From Hyphomonadaceae bacterium (GTDB taxonomy: Bacteria; Pseudomonadota; Alphaproteobacteria; Caulobacterales; Hyphomonadaceae): a DNA stretch of 64,000 bases. The notes under the pieces are model-generated. The model ran no database searches and had not been told where the DNA came from. It saw only the letters and a program-made list of their open reading frames with translations. Below, piece after piece: positions 38,827 through 48,578 of this stretch; position 1 is the stretch's first letter; the number at the start of each line of letters is the position of its first letter. The position numbers and the translations under genes are program-made. The DNA is taken from the NCBI GenBank assembly GCA_024743315.1, contig JANSWU010000005.1, positions 248,001 to 312,000 of the forward strand, given 5' to 3'.

Positions 38827-40304
38827 GCCGCAGCGATCAAATTCAGCGCGGCGTCCATTTCCGCAATTGCGGAGCTGGTTGTACCGGGGCGATCATTGGC
38901 GAGGATCGAGAAAAGCAGCCGCTTTCCGCTCTTGGCCACCATGACCCCAGACAGCGCATTGGCGCCATTCAGCGTGCCGGTCTTGGCGAAGATCTGACCT
39001 TCAAGCGGGGTGCCGACAAATCGCCGCTCCAGCGAGCCGTCAACCCCGCCAATCGGTTGATCGGCCAACCAGGCCTCGAACCAGGGCTGGCGCGCGGCAA
39101 AGGCGAGGAGCTGCACCATGCTGCGCGGGCTGATCCGATTATAGACAGACATGCCAGAACCCCCGTTCAGTGCATATCCGGTTTCCGCGATGCCAGCGTC
39201 TTCCATGAAGGCTTCGAGTTTCGCCACACCAAAGGCCCGCGACCCGGTGCCCTCAATTAGGCCAAGTCGGCGCAAGGCGAGGTCGGCATGCAGGTTCTCG
39301 CTATCCTTGGAAATTCGTTTCAGGCTTTCCGGTAGCGGAGCAGATGCCAATGATGCGATGGGTGTGATCGGCGCCTTTGGCGTATCCGTCCGCACTAGAA
39401 CCGCTTCCGCGTCCGCATCCGGTTCAAGCGGAATATCACCTAATTCTAGCGGGCGGTGGCGGGTCGCAATCCCTGCGACAGAGATCTCGCGCATTTCGAG
39501 AAGGCGTTGCAGCCTGTGCGCTGCAAATTCAGCAGGATTGTCGATCGCCAGCGGAAAGCGAATGGGGGCGTTCTCAATCGAAACATGTCCATAGATCCGA
39601 ACTGTGTCGGCGCCAGGATACCGCTCGACGCCAAAATCCGTTTCGGTCTCTGCATCAACGGTGGCCAGGGTCGCGTCGAGCTTGAGATAAGCGTCGCCCT
39701 CCTGCCATTGAACCCGAGCCGGATCGCCGATTTCGGAACCCGGCATGATCTCGATCCAGACCAGATTATCATTGACGCTGAGCGCCGAGATCGCCGTGCC
39801 ATAGTAGAATTGTAGATCCTCAACACTCCAGCCGAGCCCCCAGCGCTCAAATGGGAGATGCGTGTCATCGCCGATGATCAGGTTGATCTCTGTCAGTCCT
39901 GTCGCGGCGATTTGATCCGCGAGATCCGCCAAGCAATGGATCTCGCAATCCGGCGTGTCGGAGAGCATCGCATCTGCGCCACCGATCAGGACCAGATTAG
40001 GCGGATTGTCCGGATCAGTCTCCTCAAGATAAGCGCGTGTGCCCGGCGCCAAGGCCTCGGTCTCGAGTCTGTCGAGATGATGGTAAGCGGCCATGGTGGT
40101 GATGATTTTCGTATTTGAGGCTGGCGTGAAACGATCGTCCGGCTTAAGGGCGATCAGCTCTGTGCCATCCATCTCCGCCACGACCAGGCCCCAGCGTATG
40201 CCCGTCTGCTCCGGGTTTTCCAGGGTCGCTTGCACGCGTGTTGATAGGGACGCCTGACAAGCCACGCAAAAAACGATCAAGCCCAAAGCCAATATGCGTC
40301 GCAT
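38820..40304 (-). CDS. dacB: D-alanyl-D-alanine carboxypeptidase/endopeptidase (PBP4 family)
   Basis: A 494-residue peptidase S13 protein. After an N-terminal signal (ALGLIVFCVACQA, possibly lipidated), the catalytic SxxK is S63-N-T-K66. NGGSGMSVYN corresponds to the second active-site motif, and AKTGTLNGAN carries the KTG motif. It trims peptidoglycan side chains or cross-links in the periplasm. The S13 fold is interrupted by the usual insert domains (residues about 90-320). It sits between gyrB and recF, 26 bases before recF's end, on the same strand. Confidence 0.9.
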   Translation of the reverse strand: MRRILALGLIVFCVACQASLSTRVQATLENPEQTGIRWGLVVAEMDGTELIALKPDDRFTPASNTKIITTMAAYHHLDRLETEALAPGTRAYLEETDPDNPPNLVLIGGADAMLSDTPDCEIHCLADLADQIAATGLTEINLIIGDDTHLPFERWGLGWSVEDLQFYYGTAISALSVNDNLVWIEIMPGSEIGDPARVQWQEGDAYLKLDATLATVDAETETDFGVERYPGADTVRIYGHVSIENAPIRFPLAIDNPAEFAAHRLQRLLEMREISVAGIATRHRPLELGDIPLEPDADAEAVLVRTDTPKAPITPIASLASAPLPESLKRISKDSENLHADLALRRLGLIEGTGSRAFGVAKLEAFMEDAGIAETGYALNGGSGMSVYNRISPRSMVQLLAFAARQPWFEAWLADQPIGGVDGSLERRFVGTPLEGQIFAKTGTLNGANALSGVMVAKSGKRLLFSILANDRPGTTSSAIAEMDAALNLIAAAY

Positions 40305-40330
40305 GTCCTGTCTCCTCTCGGGCTGTGATT

Positions 40331-41446
40331 CTAGGCTGTCGCCGCGTCTGCGTCAGCTTTTATCTCAACCCGTTGCGCCCGGTCGCCAAAGGCTTCGAAG
40401 AGAAACTCTTCCGTGCCCGTCAGCCAGGCCTGTCCGCCAATCTCGATCAGCTCGTCAAACAAGGCGCTGCGGCGATCGCGATCGAGATGCGCGGCCGCCT
40501 CATCGAGTAGGATGAGCGGGCTCGGGCCGTCACCATCTTCGCTCAAGGCCCGGGCGCTGGCGAGGATCAAGCCGATCAGAAGCGCTTTTTGTTGCCCGGT
40601 TGAGGCTTCGCCAGCCGGCGCGCCGGTGGGCCGATGAATAACGATGAGATCACTGCGATGCGGTCCAGACAGCGTGCGCCCGGCGGCCTGGTCACGGTAG
40701 CGACCCTTGGCCAAATCTTCTGCAATCTGATCCTGAATGTCGAACAGGCTGGCCCCGTCGATCGCGGCCTGTTCGGCCGTGCCGTCGAGCGACAGATCGC
40801 CCTTCGGAAAAAAACCGTCCGGGCGCGCATTGATGGCCGCCTGAAGCGTCATCAAGATGCGCGCGCGATTGCTAGCCATCAGCGCCCCGGCCTCGGCCAT
40901 CCGGCCTTCAATCGCGTCTGCCCAGGCCGGATCGACCCGTCCGCGCTCGAGCAAGGCATTGCGCTCGCGCATGGCTTTTTCGTAACGGCTGGCCACGCTG
41001 CCATGGCTTGGAATATGCGCCATGACTTGGCGATCAAAGAATCGGCGACGTTCGCTGGCACCGCCGCGAAACACACTGTCCATGGCGGGCGTGAGCCAGA
41101 CAATCCGAATCAAGTCAGCAAGATCAGAAGCGGTGGCGGGCGCGCCGTCCAATCGGATCGAACGTTTGTGGCCATGGCCGCTGGAATCCAGTCCGACCCC
41201 GATTTTCTGATCATCATCGAGCGTCGCTGAGACCGTCCAGCCAGTGTCTGCATCGTGGCGGGTCATGTCGGGAAGCGACGCCGCGCGCAGGCCGCGTCCA
41301 GGCCCAAGCTGACTAATGGCTTCGAGGACATTGGTCTTGCCCGCGCCATTTGCCCCCCACAGACAAACAGGACGGCTGTCGAGTTTTAGATCGAGGTTCG
41401 CATGGCTGCGAAAATTCGTAAGGCGAAGGCGGGTAAGGGCGGTCAC
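40331..41446 (-). CDS. recF: DNA replication and repair protein RecF
   Basis: A 371-residue SMC-like ATPase that helps load RecA at gaps. The N-terminal RLTNFRSHANLDLKL and Walker A GANGAGKTNVLEAIS are visible, as is the signature STGQQKALLIG and Walker B ILLDEAAAHLD. All are intact. The start is GTG at 41446, which overlaps the dnaN stop by one base, so it is translated in coupling with dnaN. Confidence 0.96.
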   Translation of the reverse strand: MTALTRLRLTNFRSHANLDLKLDSRPVCLWGANGAGKTNVLEAISQLGPGRGLRAASLPDMTRHDADTGWTVSATLDDDQKIGVGLDSSGHGHKRSIRLDGAPATASDLADLIRIVWLTPAMDSVFRGGASERRRFFDRQVMAHIPSHGSVASRYEKAMRERNALLERGRVDPAWADAIEGRMAEAGALMASNRARILMTLQAAINARPDGFFPKGDLSLDGTAEQAAIDGASLFDIQDQIAEDLAKGRYRDQAAGRTLSGPHRSDLIVIHRPTGAPAGEASTGQQKALLIGLILASARALSEDGDGPSPLILLDEAAAHLDRDRRSALFDELIEIGGQAWLTGTEEFLFEAFGDRAQRVEIKADADAATA

Positions 41447-42564
41447 TAGACCCGGAGCGGCATCAACACGTATTGCGCGCTTTCATCACCCGGATCGAGC
41501 ACCAGCGCCGGCGAGGCCGGATCATTGAACAGGAAGCGCGCATCTTCGGCTTCGATCTGTGCCGTAACATCGAGCAGGTATTTGGCATTGAAGCCAATAT
41601 CCATTTCGCCATCCTGATAATCGCACTCAATCTCTTCATGACCCTGACCGGTCTCGGCGCTATTCACGGCCAGCGTCAAGCGACCTTCAGCGAGCGACAA
41701 TTTTACAGAGCGCGAGCGTTCCGCGGAAACGGTGGCGACGCGGTCCACAGCCGCCTCGAACAGCTTATTGTCGATGATCATTGCCTTGGCATTGCCCTTC
41801 GGAATAACGCGCGCATAGTCCGGGAAGGACCCATCGATGAGCTTTGATGTCAGCTGCGCGCGGCCAGATTTGAAGACGACTTTGGTGTCGGACACCGATA
41901 CCGAGACATCGCCATCTTCATTATCAATCAGGCGACGAACTTCGCCGACCGCCTTGCGCGGGACAATCACCCCTTCCAGCGTTTCCGCGCCGCTCGGCGC
42001 ATCAACTTCTGACAGGGCCAGGCGGTGGCCATCGGTCGCGACCGTGCGCAGTTTTTTGCCGGCATCCGTATCGGCCGTGTGCAGATAGACCCCGTTCAAA
42101 TAATAGCGGGTTTCTTCGGTGGATATGGCGAAACGCGTTTTGTCGATGAGACGACGCAAGTCTGCCGCTTCGATCACAAACTCGGTGGCATCCTCATCGG
42201 GCACCATAGTCTGGAAATCACCCGCCGGCAGGGTTGGCAGCGAGAATTTCGAGCGCCCGGAGCGGATCGCCAACTGGCGGTTTTCCGAGTTCAGTTCGAG
42301 TTCGATATCGGCCCCGGCCGGAAGTTTCCGCACCACGTCAAACAAGGTCCCGGCGGGCGCTGTGACGGCGCCATCGGCATCGATCTTGGCATCGGCATGG
42401 TCAACCGCTTCAATGTCGAGATCGGTCGCGGTGAAGCGCACTTCGCCATCCTTGGCATCGATCAGGATGTTGGACAGGATCGGAATGGTATTGCGACGTT
42501 CCACGACATTTTGGACATGTCCCAGCGCATTCAATAGCGCACCACGTTCAATCGTCAGTTTCAT
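41446..42564 (-). CDS. dnaN: DNA polymerase III sliding clamp (beta subunit)
   Basis: A 372-residue beta clamp with the three-domain layout and typical segments MKLTIERGALLNALGHVQNVVERRNTIPIL (start given as MKLTIERGALL and RRNTIPILSN) and VPRKAVGEVRRL. The C-terminus YVLMPLRV is the conserved end of the protein and forms part of the binding cleft. The ATG at 42564 is chosen; a frame to 42603 has no ribosome-binding site. It is downstream of dnaA on the same strand, with a strong hairpin between, and upstream of recF. Confidence 0.97.
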   Translation of the reverse strand: MKLTIERGALLNALGHVQNVVERRNTIPILSNILIDAKDGEVRFTATDLDIEAVDHADAKIDADGAVTAPAGTLFDVVRKLPAGADIELELNSENRQLAIRSGRSKFSLPTLPAGDFQTMVPDEDATEFVIEAADLRRLIDKTRFAISTEETRYYLNGVYLHTADTDAGKKLRTVATDGHRLALSEVDAPSGAETLEGVIVPRKAVGEVRRLIDNEDGDVSVSVSDTKVVFKSGRAQLTSKLIDGSFPDYARVIPKGNAKAMIIDNKLFEAAVDRVATVSAERSRSVKLSLAEGRLTLAVNSAETGQGHEEIECDYQDGEMDIGFNAKYLLDVTAQIEAEDARFLFNDPASPALVLDPGDESAQYVLMPLRV

Positions 42565-42627
42565 CTCATCATCCCTTTGCCGGTGCTCCGGTCTTGCCCA
42601 CAAAATCCAGTCGCCATTGACGAATCA

Positions 42628-42651
42628 GCCCGCTCCTTTTCGGGAGCGGGC
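42628..42651 (-). other. Strong hairpin between dnaA and dnaN
   Basis: A perfect 9-bp GC-rich stem, GCCCGCTCC (42628-42636) / GGAGCGGGC (42643-42651), with a six-base loop and no T-run after it on either strand. A GAATC site lies at 42622-42626. It may slow or process the dnaA-dnaN transcript or mark a dnaN promoter region. Confidence 0.6.
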
Positions 42652-42708
42652 CGCTAACGTCACGAATTTCGTGTGAATTGCAAGTCTTAGTGCTGTTTGG
42701 CTTGTGGA

Positions 42709-44172
42709 TCAGGCCTGGTTATGGCCTGCGAGCCGGTCAAACACAGCGTTTTTGACACGCTCAATCTCGTCACTCATGTCGCGGTCGCCTTTATCCAGCG
42801 CCTGTTTGATCTTGCGATAGGCATGAAGCACCGTGGTGTGGTCCTTCTTTTTGTAAGCGGTCGCGATTTGCGGGAAGGACTTGTCCGTCATTACCCGGGA
42901 CAGATACATCGCCACCTGGCGCGGATGGCAGATGGTGCGGACCTTGCTCGCGCTCTCTATGTCAGACTTAGAAATCCGGTACAGATCCATGCAGGTCCGC
43001 TTGATATCGTCGAGCGTTGGCGTGCGCGGCTCGCCTGCGATCCGTCGGATCACCGTCTCCAGCATTTCCGGGGTCGGCGCAAGCTCGCCATAACCGGTTT
43101 CAAGCTGCAGGCTCCAAAGTACCCCGCATAGCTCTCGACCAGCGCCGCGCACGGTCGCAACAATCCGATCGACCATGGCCTCGCTGAGGACAAAATTTGG
43201 TGTGTCCTTGGCAATCAAGTCCGCATGGCGACGGATAATCGCTTTGCGCATTTCATTGTCGGGTGCCGCGACTTCCACCGACGCCGCGCCTTTGATCTCG
43301 CCGGCCAATTCCTTGGACAGGCCGACCATGTCACCTGGAGCTGCATCGGCGGTGATGATCACATGACCCCCCATGGAGGTCACCGCGCGCAAGGCGCCGA
43401 AAAAAGCTTTGTCGGTCTTGGCTTTGCCGGCAATCCAGTGAAGGTCATCGATCATCAACAGATCATTCTGTTTCACATAGGCTTGTAGCGCGCTGGTGTC
43501 GCCGGCTCGGGAGTCGGTCACGAACCGGGTCATAAACTCTTCTGCCGAAATATAAGCAAGGCGGCGTGTATCGCCGCGCAAGGCGGCTTCGGCTTCAATG
43601 GCTTTCAGAATGTGAGTCTTGCCGGTGCCGGGTTGGCCATAGATGACGATAACGCCCGCCGGGATTGGTGCCCCTTTGGCGACACGTTTGCCCAAACCAA
43701 CCGCGCGCGCATTTGACGGGCCGGACACTAAAGTTGCGAACGTCATTGTGTGATCAAGCTCAAGCGCCGCATAATCGGGCTGCTCATCCGCCGGCTCATG
43801 CGCGGCTTCATCACTCTCTGCGAGCCAGGGATCACCCACCATCTCCCGGACATCGTCCGGCACGCGATCCCAACGCTCAAACTTCAAGCGGCGTTGTTTC
43901 TTGTCGAGTTTCAACCAAGCTTGTTGCAAAGGACGTGCGAAATCGGTCGTCACTCGGTCCAGCGTGAGCTGATCCGGTGCCGCGATCACAATCGACTTAT
44001 TGACTTCAGCGACAAACCGAATGGCTGTCAGCCATTGCTGAGAGTTGTCTGGCTTTGCTTCGGCCTCGACTGATTTCAAAGATTTCGACCACAGTGCCTT
44101 GGCGCCTAATTGATCCCCTTGAACTGTCTTGGTTGAAGCTTTCTGCCCATCAACCCCATACGTCAGCCCCAT
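42709..44172 (-). CDS. dnaA: Chromosomal replication initiator DnaA, highly divergent
   Basis: A 487-residue DnaA. Walker A is GQPGTGKTH (residues 179-187), Walker B LLMIDDLHWIAGK (238-250), and sensor II has Arg346 in GAGRELCGVL. Domain IV keeps HPRQVAMYLSR (416-426) and DHTTVLHAYRKI (444-455). Two features differ from the family. The SRF arginine-finger segment reads AGEIKG, placing Glu292 where E. coli Arg285 would be, and KKKDHTTV replaces the usual GGRDHTTV. Its place before dnaN and recF and after rpsT fits DnaA. It may use a modified oligomer interface or DNA-binding mode; sequence error is less likely because the frame is intact. Confidence 0.9.
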   Translation of the reverse strand: MGLTYGVDGQKASTKTVQGDQLGAKALWSKSLKSVEAEAKPDNSQQWLTAIRFVAEVNKSIVIAAPDQLTLDRVTTDFARPLQQAWLKLDKKQRRLKFERWDRVPDDVREMVGDPWLAESDEAAHEPADEQPDYAALELDHTMTFATLVSGPSNARAVGLGKRVAKGAPIPAGVIVIYGQPGTGKTHILKAIEAEAALRGDTRRLAYISAEEFMTRFVTDSRAGDTSALQAYVKQNDLLMIDDLHWIAGKAKTDKAFFGALRAVTSMGGHVIITADAAPGDMVGLSKELAGEIKGAASVEVAAPDNEMRKAIIRRHADLIAKDTPNFVLSEAMVDRIVATVRGAGRELCGVLWSLQLETGYGELAPTPEMLETVIRRIAGEPRTPTLDDIKRTCMDLYRISKSDIESASKVRTICHPRQVAMYLSRVMTDKSFPQIATAYKKKDHTTVLHAYRKIKQALDKGDRDMSDEIERVKNAVFDRLAGHNQA

Positions 44173-44549
44173 CAGATGTTCCTTTCTTTTTATTCTTGCA
44201 TCAGTTCATCATGGCGACCGAACGGAAGAGACACACACCCTCTGCTCAGACTAGAAAAGTCTGACCCCAAAATACGCTGTACACAGAGGACATTCCGTCG
44301 ATGGGTTTAGTTAATCAGAGACAGTTTTGGGTTGCAACTGAAGAAAGTTTACATGGCTCGGAAAAGGGCCGGTTGACTCGTGAAAAACCCTTGAAGAATC
44401 ACGCAAAAAAAAAGAAAAAATTCTGCACTTGACAGGTTTCAACCTATCGCCGCCATTGGGTATTCGAGCTTTGTTCTGTCAACGCTAAAAGCGCCGTTTC
44501 TCTGTGGATTTTGAAGATCTAAGACACTGCGATAATTTTGTCATATTAA
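44173..44549. other. dnaA upstream and leader region
   Basis: AT-rich, no gene. A leader hairpin TCAGACT/AGTCTGA is at 44246-44252/44258-44264. GANTC sites at 44375-44379 and 44396-44400 could be targets of CcrM-type methylation as in Caulobacter. One degenerate DnaA-box-like TGTGGATTT is at 44503-44511, and an A-rich run is at 44405-44420. There is not enough to call an origin. Confidence 0.4.
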
Positions 44550-44584
44550 GAAAAATAAAGCCCGCATGGCGAGGCCAGCGGGCT
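44550..44584 (-). terminator. Rho-independent terminator of rpsT
   Basis: Outer stem AGCCCGC (44559-44565) / GCGGGCT (44578-44584), inner stem TGGC/GCCA with GAG loop and one bulged base. On the minus strand it is followed by TTTATTTTTC. It isolates rpsT from dnaA. Confidence 0.88.
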
Positions 44585-44621
44585 ATGCAAATTTATCAGT
44601 GTCCGGACAGGATCCGAGCGC

Positions 44622-44885
44622 TTAGCTCATCGCTTTGACACGGGCTGACAGGCGCGAAACTTTACGCGCAGATGTGTTCTTGTGAATGACGCCTTTGCCT
44701 GCAGCGCGCATGATTTCCGGTTGCGCGGCTTTCAGAGCTTCAGCGGCGGCAGACTTGTCACCGGCTTCGATCGCTTCTTCGACTTTCCGGACAAAGGTGC
44801 GCATACGAGAGCGGCGCGCTTTGTTCACTTCGGTGCGCGTTGCGATCTTACGCACCATCTTTTTGGCTGATTTCGTGTTCGCCAT
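44622..44885 (-). CDS. rpsT: 30S ribosomal protein S20
   Basis: An 87-residue basic protein beginning [17 protein letters not shown], the standard S20 start, and rich in Lys and Arg throughout (helical). It binds 16S rRNA during 30S assembly. The ATG at 44885 has AAAGGAG upstream; a TTG one codon earlier is rejected. Position just upstream of dnaA on the same strand matches Caulobacter. A strong terminator follows. Confidence 0.98.
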
Positions 44886-45019
44886 CAAAAACTCCTTTGG
44901 TCGCCCTATCTGGCGAAGAGGCGGTAAGTACAGAATGCACCCCGGCGCGTCAACCGCCGGAAGGGCGCTAAGATGCAGATTCTGCAGACCCGACCGCTAA
45001 GCCTCTGCCCGCCCTTAAT

Positions 45020-45796
45020 TTATTGGTTTTTGAAGTGGGCCTGACGTTTTTCCACAAACGCCGCCATGCCCTCTTTCTGATCTTCGGTTGCGAACAGGGA
45101 ATGGAATAGCCGGCGCTCGAACATGACCCCCTGGCTGAGCGGTGTTTCATAGGCCGCATTGACCATTTCCTTGGTCAGCATCGCCGCAGCGCGGGGCATG
45201 GCGGCGATCTTCTTGGCCACCGCCTTGGCCTCTTCGACGAGATCATCGACTGGCACAATGCGCGAGACCAGACCGCAACGCTCGGCCTCTTCGGCCTCCA
45301 TCATACGTCCGGTCAGGCACATCTCCATGGCTTTCGATTTGCCGGCAAAACGGGTCAGACGCTGGGTGCCACCGGCACCTGGGGACACGCCAATAGTGAT
45401 TTCGGGCTGGCCGAACTTGGCTTTTTCACCGGCGAGGATGAAGTCACACATCATGGCCAGCTCACACCCGCCGCCAAGCGCATAGCCATTGACCGCTGCG
45501 ATCAGGGGTTTGCGGGTGCGCGCCGCGCGTTCCCAATTGCGGGTTATGAAGTCCTTATAATAGGCCTCCATATAAGACTGTTCGCGCATCTCTTTAATGT
45601 CGGCGCCAGCGGCGAATGCTTTCTTGGAGCCAGTAATCACAATGCAGCCAATTTCAGGATCTTCGTCGAAGCGATCGAGCGCCGCGGTCAGTTCATCCAT
45701 CAGCTGGTTGTTAAACGCATTCAATGCATCAGGACGGTTCAGCGTAATCACGGCAACCGCGCCATCCACTTCCGTCAACAGTGTTTCATAAGCCAT
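45020..45796 (-). CDS. Enoyl-CoA hydratase/isomerase
   Basis: A 258-residue crotonase-family hydratase. [11 protein letters not shown] (oxyanion region), [15 protein letters not shown] and [19 protein letters not shown] contain the two catalytic Glu residues, so it is likely a true short-chain enoyl-CoA hydratase in fatty acid beta-oxidation. The ATG at 45796 has AAGGAAAG upstream. An open frame extends 29 codons further but lacks a family match. Its location upstream of rpsT-dnaA is shared with Caulobacter. Confidence 0.94.
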
Positions 45797-45899
45797 GGGA
45801 GTCCCAGCTTTCCTTATCTTGCCCAGTCGCACCTTCTGTGGACGCGACCCATCACGAAGAAGCTGTAAAATATATTGCGGCACGCGTCGATAGCGCGCC

Positions 45900-48578
45900 T
45901 CAGGTCTGATCTTTGAGCTTGTAGATCAAGTCCAGGGCTTCGCGTGGTGACAAACTGTCTGGATCGATCGATTGCAGGAATTCTAAGGCCGGATGCGGCG
46001 CGTCTGTCGTGACGATCTCTTCCTCTTCTGCAGCCGCTGCGAACAGGGGCAGTGTATCGACCGCGTCCGGGGCCGCCTCGAGTTTCTTGAGCACTTGTTC
46101 TGCACGGCGAACCGCTTTGCCTGGCAGTCCGGCAAGTTTCGCGACTTGAACTCCATAAGAGCGATCCGCGGCACCCGGTTGGACATCATGCAAGAAAACC
46201 AGATCGTCCTTCCATTCCTTGGCCCGCAAGGAGAGATTGGTCGCCGACGGCAAGTCATCAGCGAGATTGGTCAGCTCATGATAATGAGTCGCGAACAGCG
46301 CGCGACACTTATTGGTATTATGCAAATGCTCGACAGCCGCCCAGGCAATGGCCAGGCCATCATAAGTTGAGGTGCCGCGTCCGACTTCATCCAGAATGAC
46401 GAACGAGTTTTGCGTGGCCTGGGTCAGGATGGCGGCGGTTTCGACCATTTCCACCATGAAGGTCGACCGTCCGCGCGACAGGTCATCACTGGCTCCGACC
46501 CGCGAGAAGACCCGATCGGCGAGCCCCAGTGTCAAGCGACGGGCCGGGACAAAAAGACCTGCTTGCGCCAGGATCACGGCCAGGCAAGCCTGCCGCAAAT
46601 AGGTGGATTTACCCGCCATGTTCGGGCCGGTGACGAGCGCCAGGCGAGGTGCTTGCTCACCGCTGGCATCGAGCTCCGTATCATTGGCGGTGAAGCCATC
46701 ACCTTGTTTGCGCAAAGCGGCCTCGACAACCGGATGGCGCAAGCCTTTGGCGGTGAAAACTGGGTCCTCAGAGAGATGCGGACGTGTCGCCGCGGTTTCG
46801 CTCGCCCATTCAGCATTGGCGCTCGCCGTGTCCAGCTCCGCCAGTGCCTCGGCGGCCTCGCTCAACGGCATCGACAGGGTTTCGACGCGGGCACAAAAAG
46901 TTTCGAAAATCGCCAGCTCGCGGCCCTTGGCAATATCATCCGCGCGCGAGATCTTGCCGGCTAGCTCCGACAGGTCTGATGTCGAGAAGCGAACATTCGA
47001 GGCCAGCGTTTGCCGGTGAATGAATGTCTCGGCCAGCGGTGCCTTCATCATCGGGTCGGCATGGCGTGCCGGGACATCAATGAAATAGCCAAGAACATTG
47101 TTGAATTTGATCTTGAGCGCGCTGATCCCGGTTTGGTCGGCATAACGCGTTTGCAGCTCGGCAATGATCCGGCGGCTGTCTGATTTGAGGTTTCGCGCTT
47201 CGTCAAGCGCGGCGTCCCAACCGGGCGCAATGAAGCCGCCATCTCGGGCAAGGGTCGGCAATTCATCACTCAAGGCGCGTCCGAGGTCTGAGACCAGGGC
47301 AGCGACATCCGGTTGGTTGGATAAGGTCAGCGCTTGTAAGGTCGCTTCGATCAGATGTGGTGGGTTGGTTTGCGCCCGCGCGGCTTCTGCGACCGCTTCT
47401 TCACCGGCCTTCAACGCGGCGCCAATCGCGGCAAGGTCACGCGGCCCACCTCGACCTAAACGAATGCGCGAGCGCGCACGCTCGAGGTCCGGCGCACTTT
47501 TTAAGCGGGCACGAATGGCCTCGCGCAAATGCTCATTGGCCAGGAAATACTCGATCGCGTCATAGCGCGCTGTGATTGTATCGGCATCGGTTTCGGGGCG
47601 GGCCAGCCGCGCGGCGAGCATGCGGGCACCCGGCGAGGTCAGAGTGCGGTCAACCGTCGCCAAAAGCGTGCCGTGTCGGGCACCATTCAGACCCACATCA
47701 ATCTCTAGACTGGCCCGCGTCGCTGGATCGATGCTGAGCGCACTTCCGCCCGCAGAACGCTTTGGAGGATCGAGGCGGATCTCGGCCCCGGCCTGGGTCA
47801 GCGAAAGGTAATCGAGCAATAAGCCACAGGCCGCCAATTCAGTCTTGGAAAACAGGCCGAACGCGTCCAGCGCAGCGACCTGAAACGTCTCTTTCAGCAT
47901 GCGTTCGCCGGATTTCGCATTGGCGGCGCTATTCGGGCGATAAGTGATCGGCAGCTTCAATGCATCTTCGGCGAGACTGACCAGCGGGCGCTCGGCGTCG
48001 CGTTCCGTCACCAGGCATTCCTTGATCGGCAAGGCGCTGAGCGTTTCGGACAAGGCTTCGGGTGCAAATCCGCGTACTTCGAAATAGCCGGTTGAGACAT
48101 CGCAGGCGGCGAAGGCGGCTTCAGCCCCGCCGGCGCCGAATGCAATGGCGATGAGGGCCTGTCCCTGGCGGGCTGGCAGCAAACTGTCTTCGGTGATCGT
48201 GCCCGGCGTGACAATGCGCACAATCTCGCGATTGACGATCGCCTTGGAGCCGCGCTTTTTCGCTTCCGCAGGACTTTCCGTCTGTTCGCACACCGCGACG
48301 CGCTCACCCGCCTTGATCAAGCGGGCGAGATAGCCTTCGGCGGCATGATATGGCACGCCCGCCATCGGAATCGGTTCGCCATCATGTTCGCCGCGAGCGG
48401 TCAGGGTGATGTCGAGGATTTCGGCGGCGCGGACAGCGTCTTCAAAGAACAGCTCGTAAAAATCGCCCATGCGAAAAAACAGGAGCGCATCTTCATGCTG
48501 CGCCTTGATCGCCAGATATTGCGCCATGAATGGGGTCGGCGCTTTTGGCTTTTTTATCTTTCCGGCACTGTCTGGCAC
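45900..48578 (-). CDS. mutS: DNA mismatch repair protein MutS
   Basis: An 892-residue MutS. The mismatch-binding [10 protein letters not shown] (Phe-x-Glu motif) is near residue 37. The ATPase domain has Walker [14 protein letters not shown], the ABC signature area [14 protein letters not shown], Walker [16 protein letters not shown] and the helix-turn-helix end. The GTG at 48578 ([10 protein letters not shown]) is taken; Met18 is an alternative. It is divergent from maeB across 120 bases that contain two GANTC sites in a GAATCC/GGATTC hairpin (48587-48592/48602-48607). The mutL partner is not in the window. Confidence 0.97.

Follow-up and report, generated by a model that had tools for sequence, protein, structure and literature searches.

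The arginine finger in box VII of DnaA, Arg285 in Escherichia coli, is commonly invoked to explain why the initiation complex is assembled by ATP-DnaA alone, according to the accounts in PMC5043065 and PMC6727663. A dnaA gene whose product carries glutamate at this position raises the question of how such a protein could assemble at an origin, or whether it is still the initiator at all. The gene in question lies on the minus strand at 42709..44172 of a 64,000-nucleotide stretch of DNA (the window) and encodes a chromosomal replication initiator of 487 aa, identified from the ORF listing, Pfam, NCBIfam and alignment. Directly 3' of it stands dnaN, for the beta clamp (41446..42603, minus strand), whose listed start is the first TTG and whose real start is probably a later ATG; dnaN is followed by recF (40331..41446, minus strand), and rpsT, for ribosomal protein S20, lies 5' of dnaA (44622..44888, minus strand). 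The names dnaN, recF and rpsT are those that we take these adjoining ORFs to deserve from their translations, and with them the gene order dnaA-dnaN-recF is present. No Rfam match was found at 40000-47000.

The protein is recognizable as a divergent DnaA. In the Pfam search of the 487-aa sequence, Bac_DnaA (PF00308) scored 108.9 bits against a cut-off of 23, and Bac_DnaA_C (PF08299) 79.3 bits against 31.5, with the DHTT motif kept; DnaA domain I (PF11638) scored 23.5 bits, for a cut-off of 24.6. The NCBIfam DnaA equivalog TIGR00362 reached 300.5 bits, under its cut-off of 343.9, a value attained in only 14 of 105 genomes of the family, in two of them (G006 and G085) via extra copies. These extra copies encode a second, canonical DnaA with an arginine finger (G006:C13:69041-70330 and G085:C42:4-1272) and are probably contamination. 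The first-pass annotation had counted a second canonical dnaA against its own reading; the genome that holds the window (3.31 Mb, 8 contigs) contains a single PF00308 match, and no second full-length dnaA was found in it by the PF00308 and TIGR00362 searches, the second TIGR00362 match being short and covering domain IV only. Outside the window, the same genome encodes a 113-aa protein that resembles DnaA domain IV alone (G000:C3:112016-112255; L262 263-604), which, we presume, may be the HdaB-like protein of Caulobacter. Eight named relatives, all of them metagenome bins, have a DnaA 74-89% identical to the present one; six bear the label Henriciella, one Hyphomonas and one Hyphomonadaceae, and Henriciella is placed within Hyphomonadaceae by NCBI.

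E. coli K-12 DnaA served as the reference for mapping residues in a multiple alignment. Between E. coli positions 228 and 300, neither protein requires a gap, and the correspondences are K185 to K178, R262 to N255, D276 to D269, E288 to R281, E292 to R285 and R346 to R334. By arithmetic from the ATG at 44172, the minus-strand codon of Glu292, at the place of the arginine finger, lies at 43297..43299, and that of Glu288, at the place of Arg281, at 43309..43311. Thus, Glu stands where a canonical finger has Arg285, and the gapless alignment bears out the earlier hand alignment, in which both box VII arginines were read as glutamate. The comparison with related genera and E. coli that had been proposed at that stage gives the same result, with Glu at 285 in 29 of 29 members of the genus. 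Arg281 is the equivalent of the arginine coupler of DnaC, where coupler (216) and finger (220) are four residues apart, as are 281 and 285 in DnaA (PMC8213410); both arginines are present in DnaC, whereas both are Glu in the present protein. As reported in PMC8213410, DnaA R281 is dispensable for ATP binding and oriC melting and is needed for a complex stable enough for helicase loading.

The rest of the ATP site is intact. Canonical DnaA proteins (E. coli, B. subtilis, Aquifex, Thermotoga) share the same AAA+ domain III, with Walker A and B and sensors 1 and 2, followed by domain IV, and in the alignment the Walker A lysine, Walker B aspartate, sensor 1 aspartate and sensor 2 arginine are all kept in the present protein. 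The codon of Asp276 (sensor 1, Asp269) is at 43345..43347 and that of Arg346 (sensor 2, Arg334) at 43135..43137, both by mapping and arithmetic on the minus strand. DnaA would therefore be expected still to bind ATP. The hydrolysis partner appears to be retained as well. The HdaA model NF051883 matched at E 0.001 or better in 59 of 61 genomes, although its curated cut-off was reached in none of the 61 and some matches were weak or fell on DnaA itself; among 39 aligned HdaA sequences of the order, that of the present genome included, the box VII arginine is kept in all. Genetics of RIDA with HdaA have been described in Caulobacter crescentus, where DnaA R357A, the equivalent of R334A, over-initiates (PMC3193534). 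Since both sensor 2 and the HdaA finger are kept, RIDA could go on, with HdaA supplying an arginine in trans and so triggering hydrolysis of the DnaA-bound ATP. As a separate observation, the Walker A lysine is absent from HdaA in 17 of 17 aligned members of the genus; the HdaA of this genome, encoded outside the window at G000:C8:457294-457941 (L243 277-957), has GTKGSGVTT at this site and keeps the box VII SRL. Judging by these motifs, HdaA of the genus is perhaps a nucleotide-free arginine donor.

To place the substitution among relatives, 269 DnaA sequences were aligned: 208 from the order (families f1 to f5), 60 from elsewhere in the class, and that of E. coli. Family f1 is that of the window, represented by 68 of the 105 family genomes searched, and the extra full-length copies of G006 and G085 were excluded. 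The class rows were drawn from 289 genomes, four of which belong to the order, as the 30 best-scoring and a further 30, hand-picked and mostly low-scoring; because of these picks, losses of Arg285 in the class sample are, if anything, over-represented. Arg285 is kept in 34 of 208 DnaA of the order, namely in 29/29 of f5 but only 5 of 179 in f1 to f4. Column 285 in f1 holds Glu in 62, Asp in two, Gln in two, Val in one and Ile in one, and is thus acidic in 64 of 68; f2 has His throughout (34/34), f3 has Arg in four, Lys in 12 and other residues in 22 of 38 rows, and f4 has Arg in a single one (G035) of 39. Outside the order, Arg was found in 56 of 60 and Leu in four, and E. coli has Arg. The four leucines occur in G311, G317, G330 and G449, the last two of which also have His at sensor 2.

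Two quick trees were computed, one without columns 281 and 285 (76 rows) and one without 255, 281 and 285 (85 rows). In each, f1 to f4 were grouped with support of 92 and f5 lay outside; several branches are long, and in the 76-row tree the long outside row G449 fell inside f1 to f4. The fewest changes between Arg and other residues were four on the 76 rows and six on the 85 rows. The simplest reading of these sequences is one old loss of Arg285 at the base of f1 to f4, with a few separate losses in other alphaproteobacteria, and with Arg285 regained or retained in one f3 genus (g23) and in one f4 genome (G035). Hence, the absence of the finger, which the first-pass annotation had attributed to this lineage, stands, but its restriction to the lineage does not, as almost every sampled member of a four-family clade shares it. 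Family f2 is probably that of Caulobacter, as judged from residue numbering only. Of the four f2 DnaA checked, two are 490 aa long, carry His302 in place of the finger and have R357 as their sensor 2 arginine, the number published for the C. crescentus counterpart of R334 (PMC3193534). A further difference concerns Arg342, after sensor 2, which is basic in 93% of the class sample and in no f1 row, with mostly Thr, Gln or Asn in f2 to f4; on the alignment, this is another change common to the finger-less clade.

A candidate for compensation emerged at position 255. A scan of a 143-row alignment for charge changes common to the family returned 285 and several other positions; among the latter, only 255 adjoins box VII in the fold. 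All 68 f1 sequences have Arg at 255; 54 of the 60 other alphaproteobacteria have Asn or Asp there, and the 29 sequences of f5 have Asp, Asn or Glu without exception. In the present protein the residue is Arg262 (codon at 43387..43389, minus strand, by mapping and arithmetic). The two columns vary together: among 91 sequences with Arg285, 86 have Asn, Asp or Glu at 255, and Lys or Arg stands at 255 in each of the 65 sequences whose 285 is acidic. In f4, G035 combines Asn255 with Arg285, and its sister G027 has Gly and His. There are exceptions in detail. Asn, Asp or Glu at 255 occurs without Arg285 in 14 sequences (as 255/285, eight D/V and one N/I in the order and two D/L outside it, together with three that have Lys285), and the four of 68 f1 sequences with Gln, Val or Ile at 285 still have Arg255. 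Furthermore, the HdaA counterpart of 255 (n=39) is Asn in 28, Ser in eight (that of the present genome included), Glu in two and Thr in one. HdaA thus combines a finger with other residues at this place, which shows that a finger can do without Asn beside it.

Corrected mutual information makes 255 and 285 mutual first partners; among 54,615 pairs they rank first with a 20-letter alphabet and 11th with a reduced one. Removal of f1, G126 and G241 lowers the pair to rank 979 of 54,946 and leaves 255 as no better than the 11th partner of 285; when f1 and f2 are removed, the rank is 375 of 54,615, and within f1 to f4 alone it is 1342. Beyond f1, Lys or Arg at 255 occurs within the order in G126 and G241 alone, and since both lie beside f1 in the DnaA tree, they are not independent of it. 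A tree-based test of the pair was not significant, being underpowered with only three independent pairs on starred branches and six on all branches. In terms of sequence covariation, the link between 255 and 285 is strong, yet a single origin of the Arg/Glu pair accounts for most of it.

Structural precedents give this position a possible meaning. AAA+ proteins pack against the ATP-binding face of their neighbour through a surface that includes both the Arg-finger helix and the helix that runs between Walker B and sensor 1; from the latter, the T4 clamp loader offers Arg122 in trans to the Walker B aspartate of the adjoining subunit, and DnaA is said to correspond in the junction between the two helices (PMC8121543). 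Because 255 sits on the Walker B-sensor 1 helix, it is plausible that Arg262 reaches the neighbour's nucleotide, by this analogy and from its place in the sequence. The likeness to the clamp loader is partial: its trans Arg122 occupies the same helix as Arg262, but it keeps a separate finger on the next helix, unlike the present DnaA. An AlphaFold run on nine sequences gave a low-confidence model (mean pLDDT 55.2), with a helix at residues 255-266 of the present protein. In an alignment read by eye, E. coli and three DnaA sequences from the PDB have the pair Asn255/Arg285, in contrast to Arg262/Glu292 here, where Arg281 is also lost. DnaA of C. crescentus is likewise without the box VII finger, provided that G232 and G196 belong, as their numbering suggests, to Caulobacter, and would differ from the present protein in having His at 285 and Thr at 255, with Arg at neither. 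At 281, His occurs in five of 34 f2 rows, G232 included.

The site of initiation bears on whether DnaA has kept its role. An origin at dnaA was considered and rejected. The gap between rpsT and dnaA (44173..44621) contains no DnaA box (TTATCCACA, up to one mismatch) and is therefore not an obvious oriC; the whole window is poor in one-mismatch boxes, with three against 6.46 in shuffles, fewer than expected, and GC skew across it shows no clear turn. Exact copies of TTATCCACA are not enriched genome-wide either, numbering 10, 9, 3 and 16 in G000 (the present genome), G044, G017 and G057, where the reversed control gives 17, 16, 21 and 14; in none of these four genomes does an exact box lie less than 5 kb from another. 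Upstream of hemE, six genomes of the genus have in common two adjacent DnaA-box cores, and more. The core TCCACA, a motif picked after viewing the alignment of these related genomes, occurs 17 times in the six 380-bp stretches against 1.47 in shuffles, with none of 500 as high. Over the 16-kb hemE stretch of the present genome as a whole, it is not enriched (7 vs 5.86), the enrichment lying in the 380 bases before hemE. In Hyphomonas neptunium, marker frequency placed initiation near hemE once predictions based on skew, dnaA and DnaA sites had failed to point clearly to an origin, as related in PMC6650430, and the DnaA-box consensus of Caulobacter is given as [TC][TCG][AG]TCCACA (PMC2877005). 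Because of H. neptunium, the stretch upstream of hemE is taken as the origin, which by analogy probably lies there and not at dnaA. The cores in turn support DnaA as the initiator, and the 5' half of its box is perhaps relaxed.

Altogether, with moderate confidence, these sequence comparisons favour a genuine, sole and working DnaA of a Henriciella-like alphaproteobacterium, whose finger was lost long ago in its lineage and whose ATP interface has been rewired. The protein would bind ATP and yield it to HdaA-triggered hydrolysis as before, and its assembly with other DnaA molecules at the origin would have been freed from dependence on an arginine at 285. In f1, the surface facing the ATP site of the neighbour would carry Arg262/Glu292 in place of Asn255/Arg285, with Arg262 either contacting the neighbour's gamma-phosphate or Walker B aspartate, or pairing with Glu292 to stabilize the assembly. 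Conservation and covariation thus name Arg262 as the candidate for the role of the finger. A more specific version, which is put forward as a tentative proposal and may well not hold, joins an ancestral loss of Arg285 in four families to a move of the trans arginine in f1 to the preceding helix, as Arg262, with Glu at the old site as its anchor, while related families, probably including C. crescentus, would assemble DnaA without any box VII finger.

It is possible, though rather unlikely, that selection has simply been relaxed, such that no trans arginine is needed at these origins, 285 has drifted with Glu tolerated, and Arg262 has a local structural role. Lineages with Arg at neither 255 nor 285 do live, as in all 34 f2 and 38 of 39 f4 sequences, and the absence of significance in the tree-based pair test points the same way. 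According to the review PMC6727663, the lethality of DnaA(R285A) in E. coli is suppressed by oriC-allADP, an origin without ATP-specific sites, so the loss of a finger can be survived if the origin changes; the T. maritima finger mutant R251A is described as virtually inactive in unwinding the native origin in vitro (PMC10316083). The f1 site, however, does not behave as if drifting, given its acidic residue in 64 of 68 sequences and the invariant Arg255, and an acidic 285 is without exception accompanied by a basic 255. Another basic residue of box VII might instead have become the finger, either Arg281 where it is kept or Lys/Arg at 280 or 287 (Lys287 and Lys294 in the present protein). Arg281 is kept in 50/68 of f1 and 39/39 of f4, and in the genus in 14 of 29 aligned members; in the remaining subclade of 15, to which the window belongs and which has Glu (14) or Gln (one) at 281, positions 280 and 287 are Lys or Arg in 15/15. 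This substitution of one box VII residue for another nevertheless seems improbable, as R281 of E. coli is reportedly not needed for ATP binding or oriC melting (PMC8213410), 287 is Met or Leu in 14/14 of the sister subclade, and 280, 281 and 287 are all outside the 12 best covariation partners of 285.

The two explanations that would deny the locus a finger-less initiator fare worse. That DnaA is no longer the initiator, another protein starting replication, would fit the divergence seen in the TIGR00362 score, the lack of a TTATCCACA-like box in the rpsT-dnaA gap and the lack of close exact boxes in four genomes. It is nonetheless highly improbable, as the only full dnaA stands beside dnaN and recF and keeps its ATP-site residues and DHTTV, HdaA is kept with its finger, and conserved DnaA-box cores precede hemE, near the replication start of H. 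neptunium; for these reasons DnaA is very likely still the initiator. Of the two options left by the first-pass annotation, a different interface or another initiator, a different DnaA-DnaA interface is accordingly retained as the best reading and the other initiator set aside. An artefact of misassembly, frameshift, contamination or misalignment has a negligible probability: the frame is intact, the aligned stretch is free of gaps, nothing was found in favour of an error, and the recurrence of Glu285 in 62 of 68 family DnaA and in every genus member excludes sequencing error and chance.

A rewired interface of this kind would have consequences beyond the locus. If a clade has replaced or dispensed with Arg285, the ATP gate of initiation can be rewired, and this clade probably includes the main model of alphaproteobacterial cell-cycle control. 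In addition, retention of the HdaA finger in 39/39 genomes, as opposed to its loss in DnaA, separates the use of DnaA-bound ATP in assembly from its use in switching off, so that each can be tested by itself. A literature search with limited coverage of subscription papers found no report of this loss of Arg285.

Two further sequence features had been singled out as unusual. The Walker A motif GQPGTGKT (residues 179-186; 43615..43638, minus strand, by translation and arithmetic) had been called atypical, a description that does not hold, as DnaA of Aquifex aeolicus (1L8Q) has a close counterpart, GSVGTGKTH, at the same place. The replacement of GGR in E. coli by Lys441-443 before the kept DHTTV (codons at 42844..42852, minus strand, from translation, alignment and arithmetic) is real, but it is not unusual: Aquifex has KRKDHTTV there, and the idea that KKKDHTTV might signal a change in how DNA is recognized was for this reason rejected as nothing special. 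Within the genus, 13 of the 29 rows have precisely KKK. Elsewhere in domain IV of f1, in E. coli numbering, R399 is replaced by Lys in several genera and R405 mostly by Tyr or His, and R432K is present in 28 of 29 genus members; going by sequence, the changes at 399, 405 and 432 might relax the requirement for the 5' half of the DnaA box.
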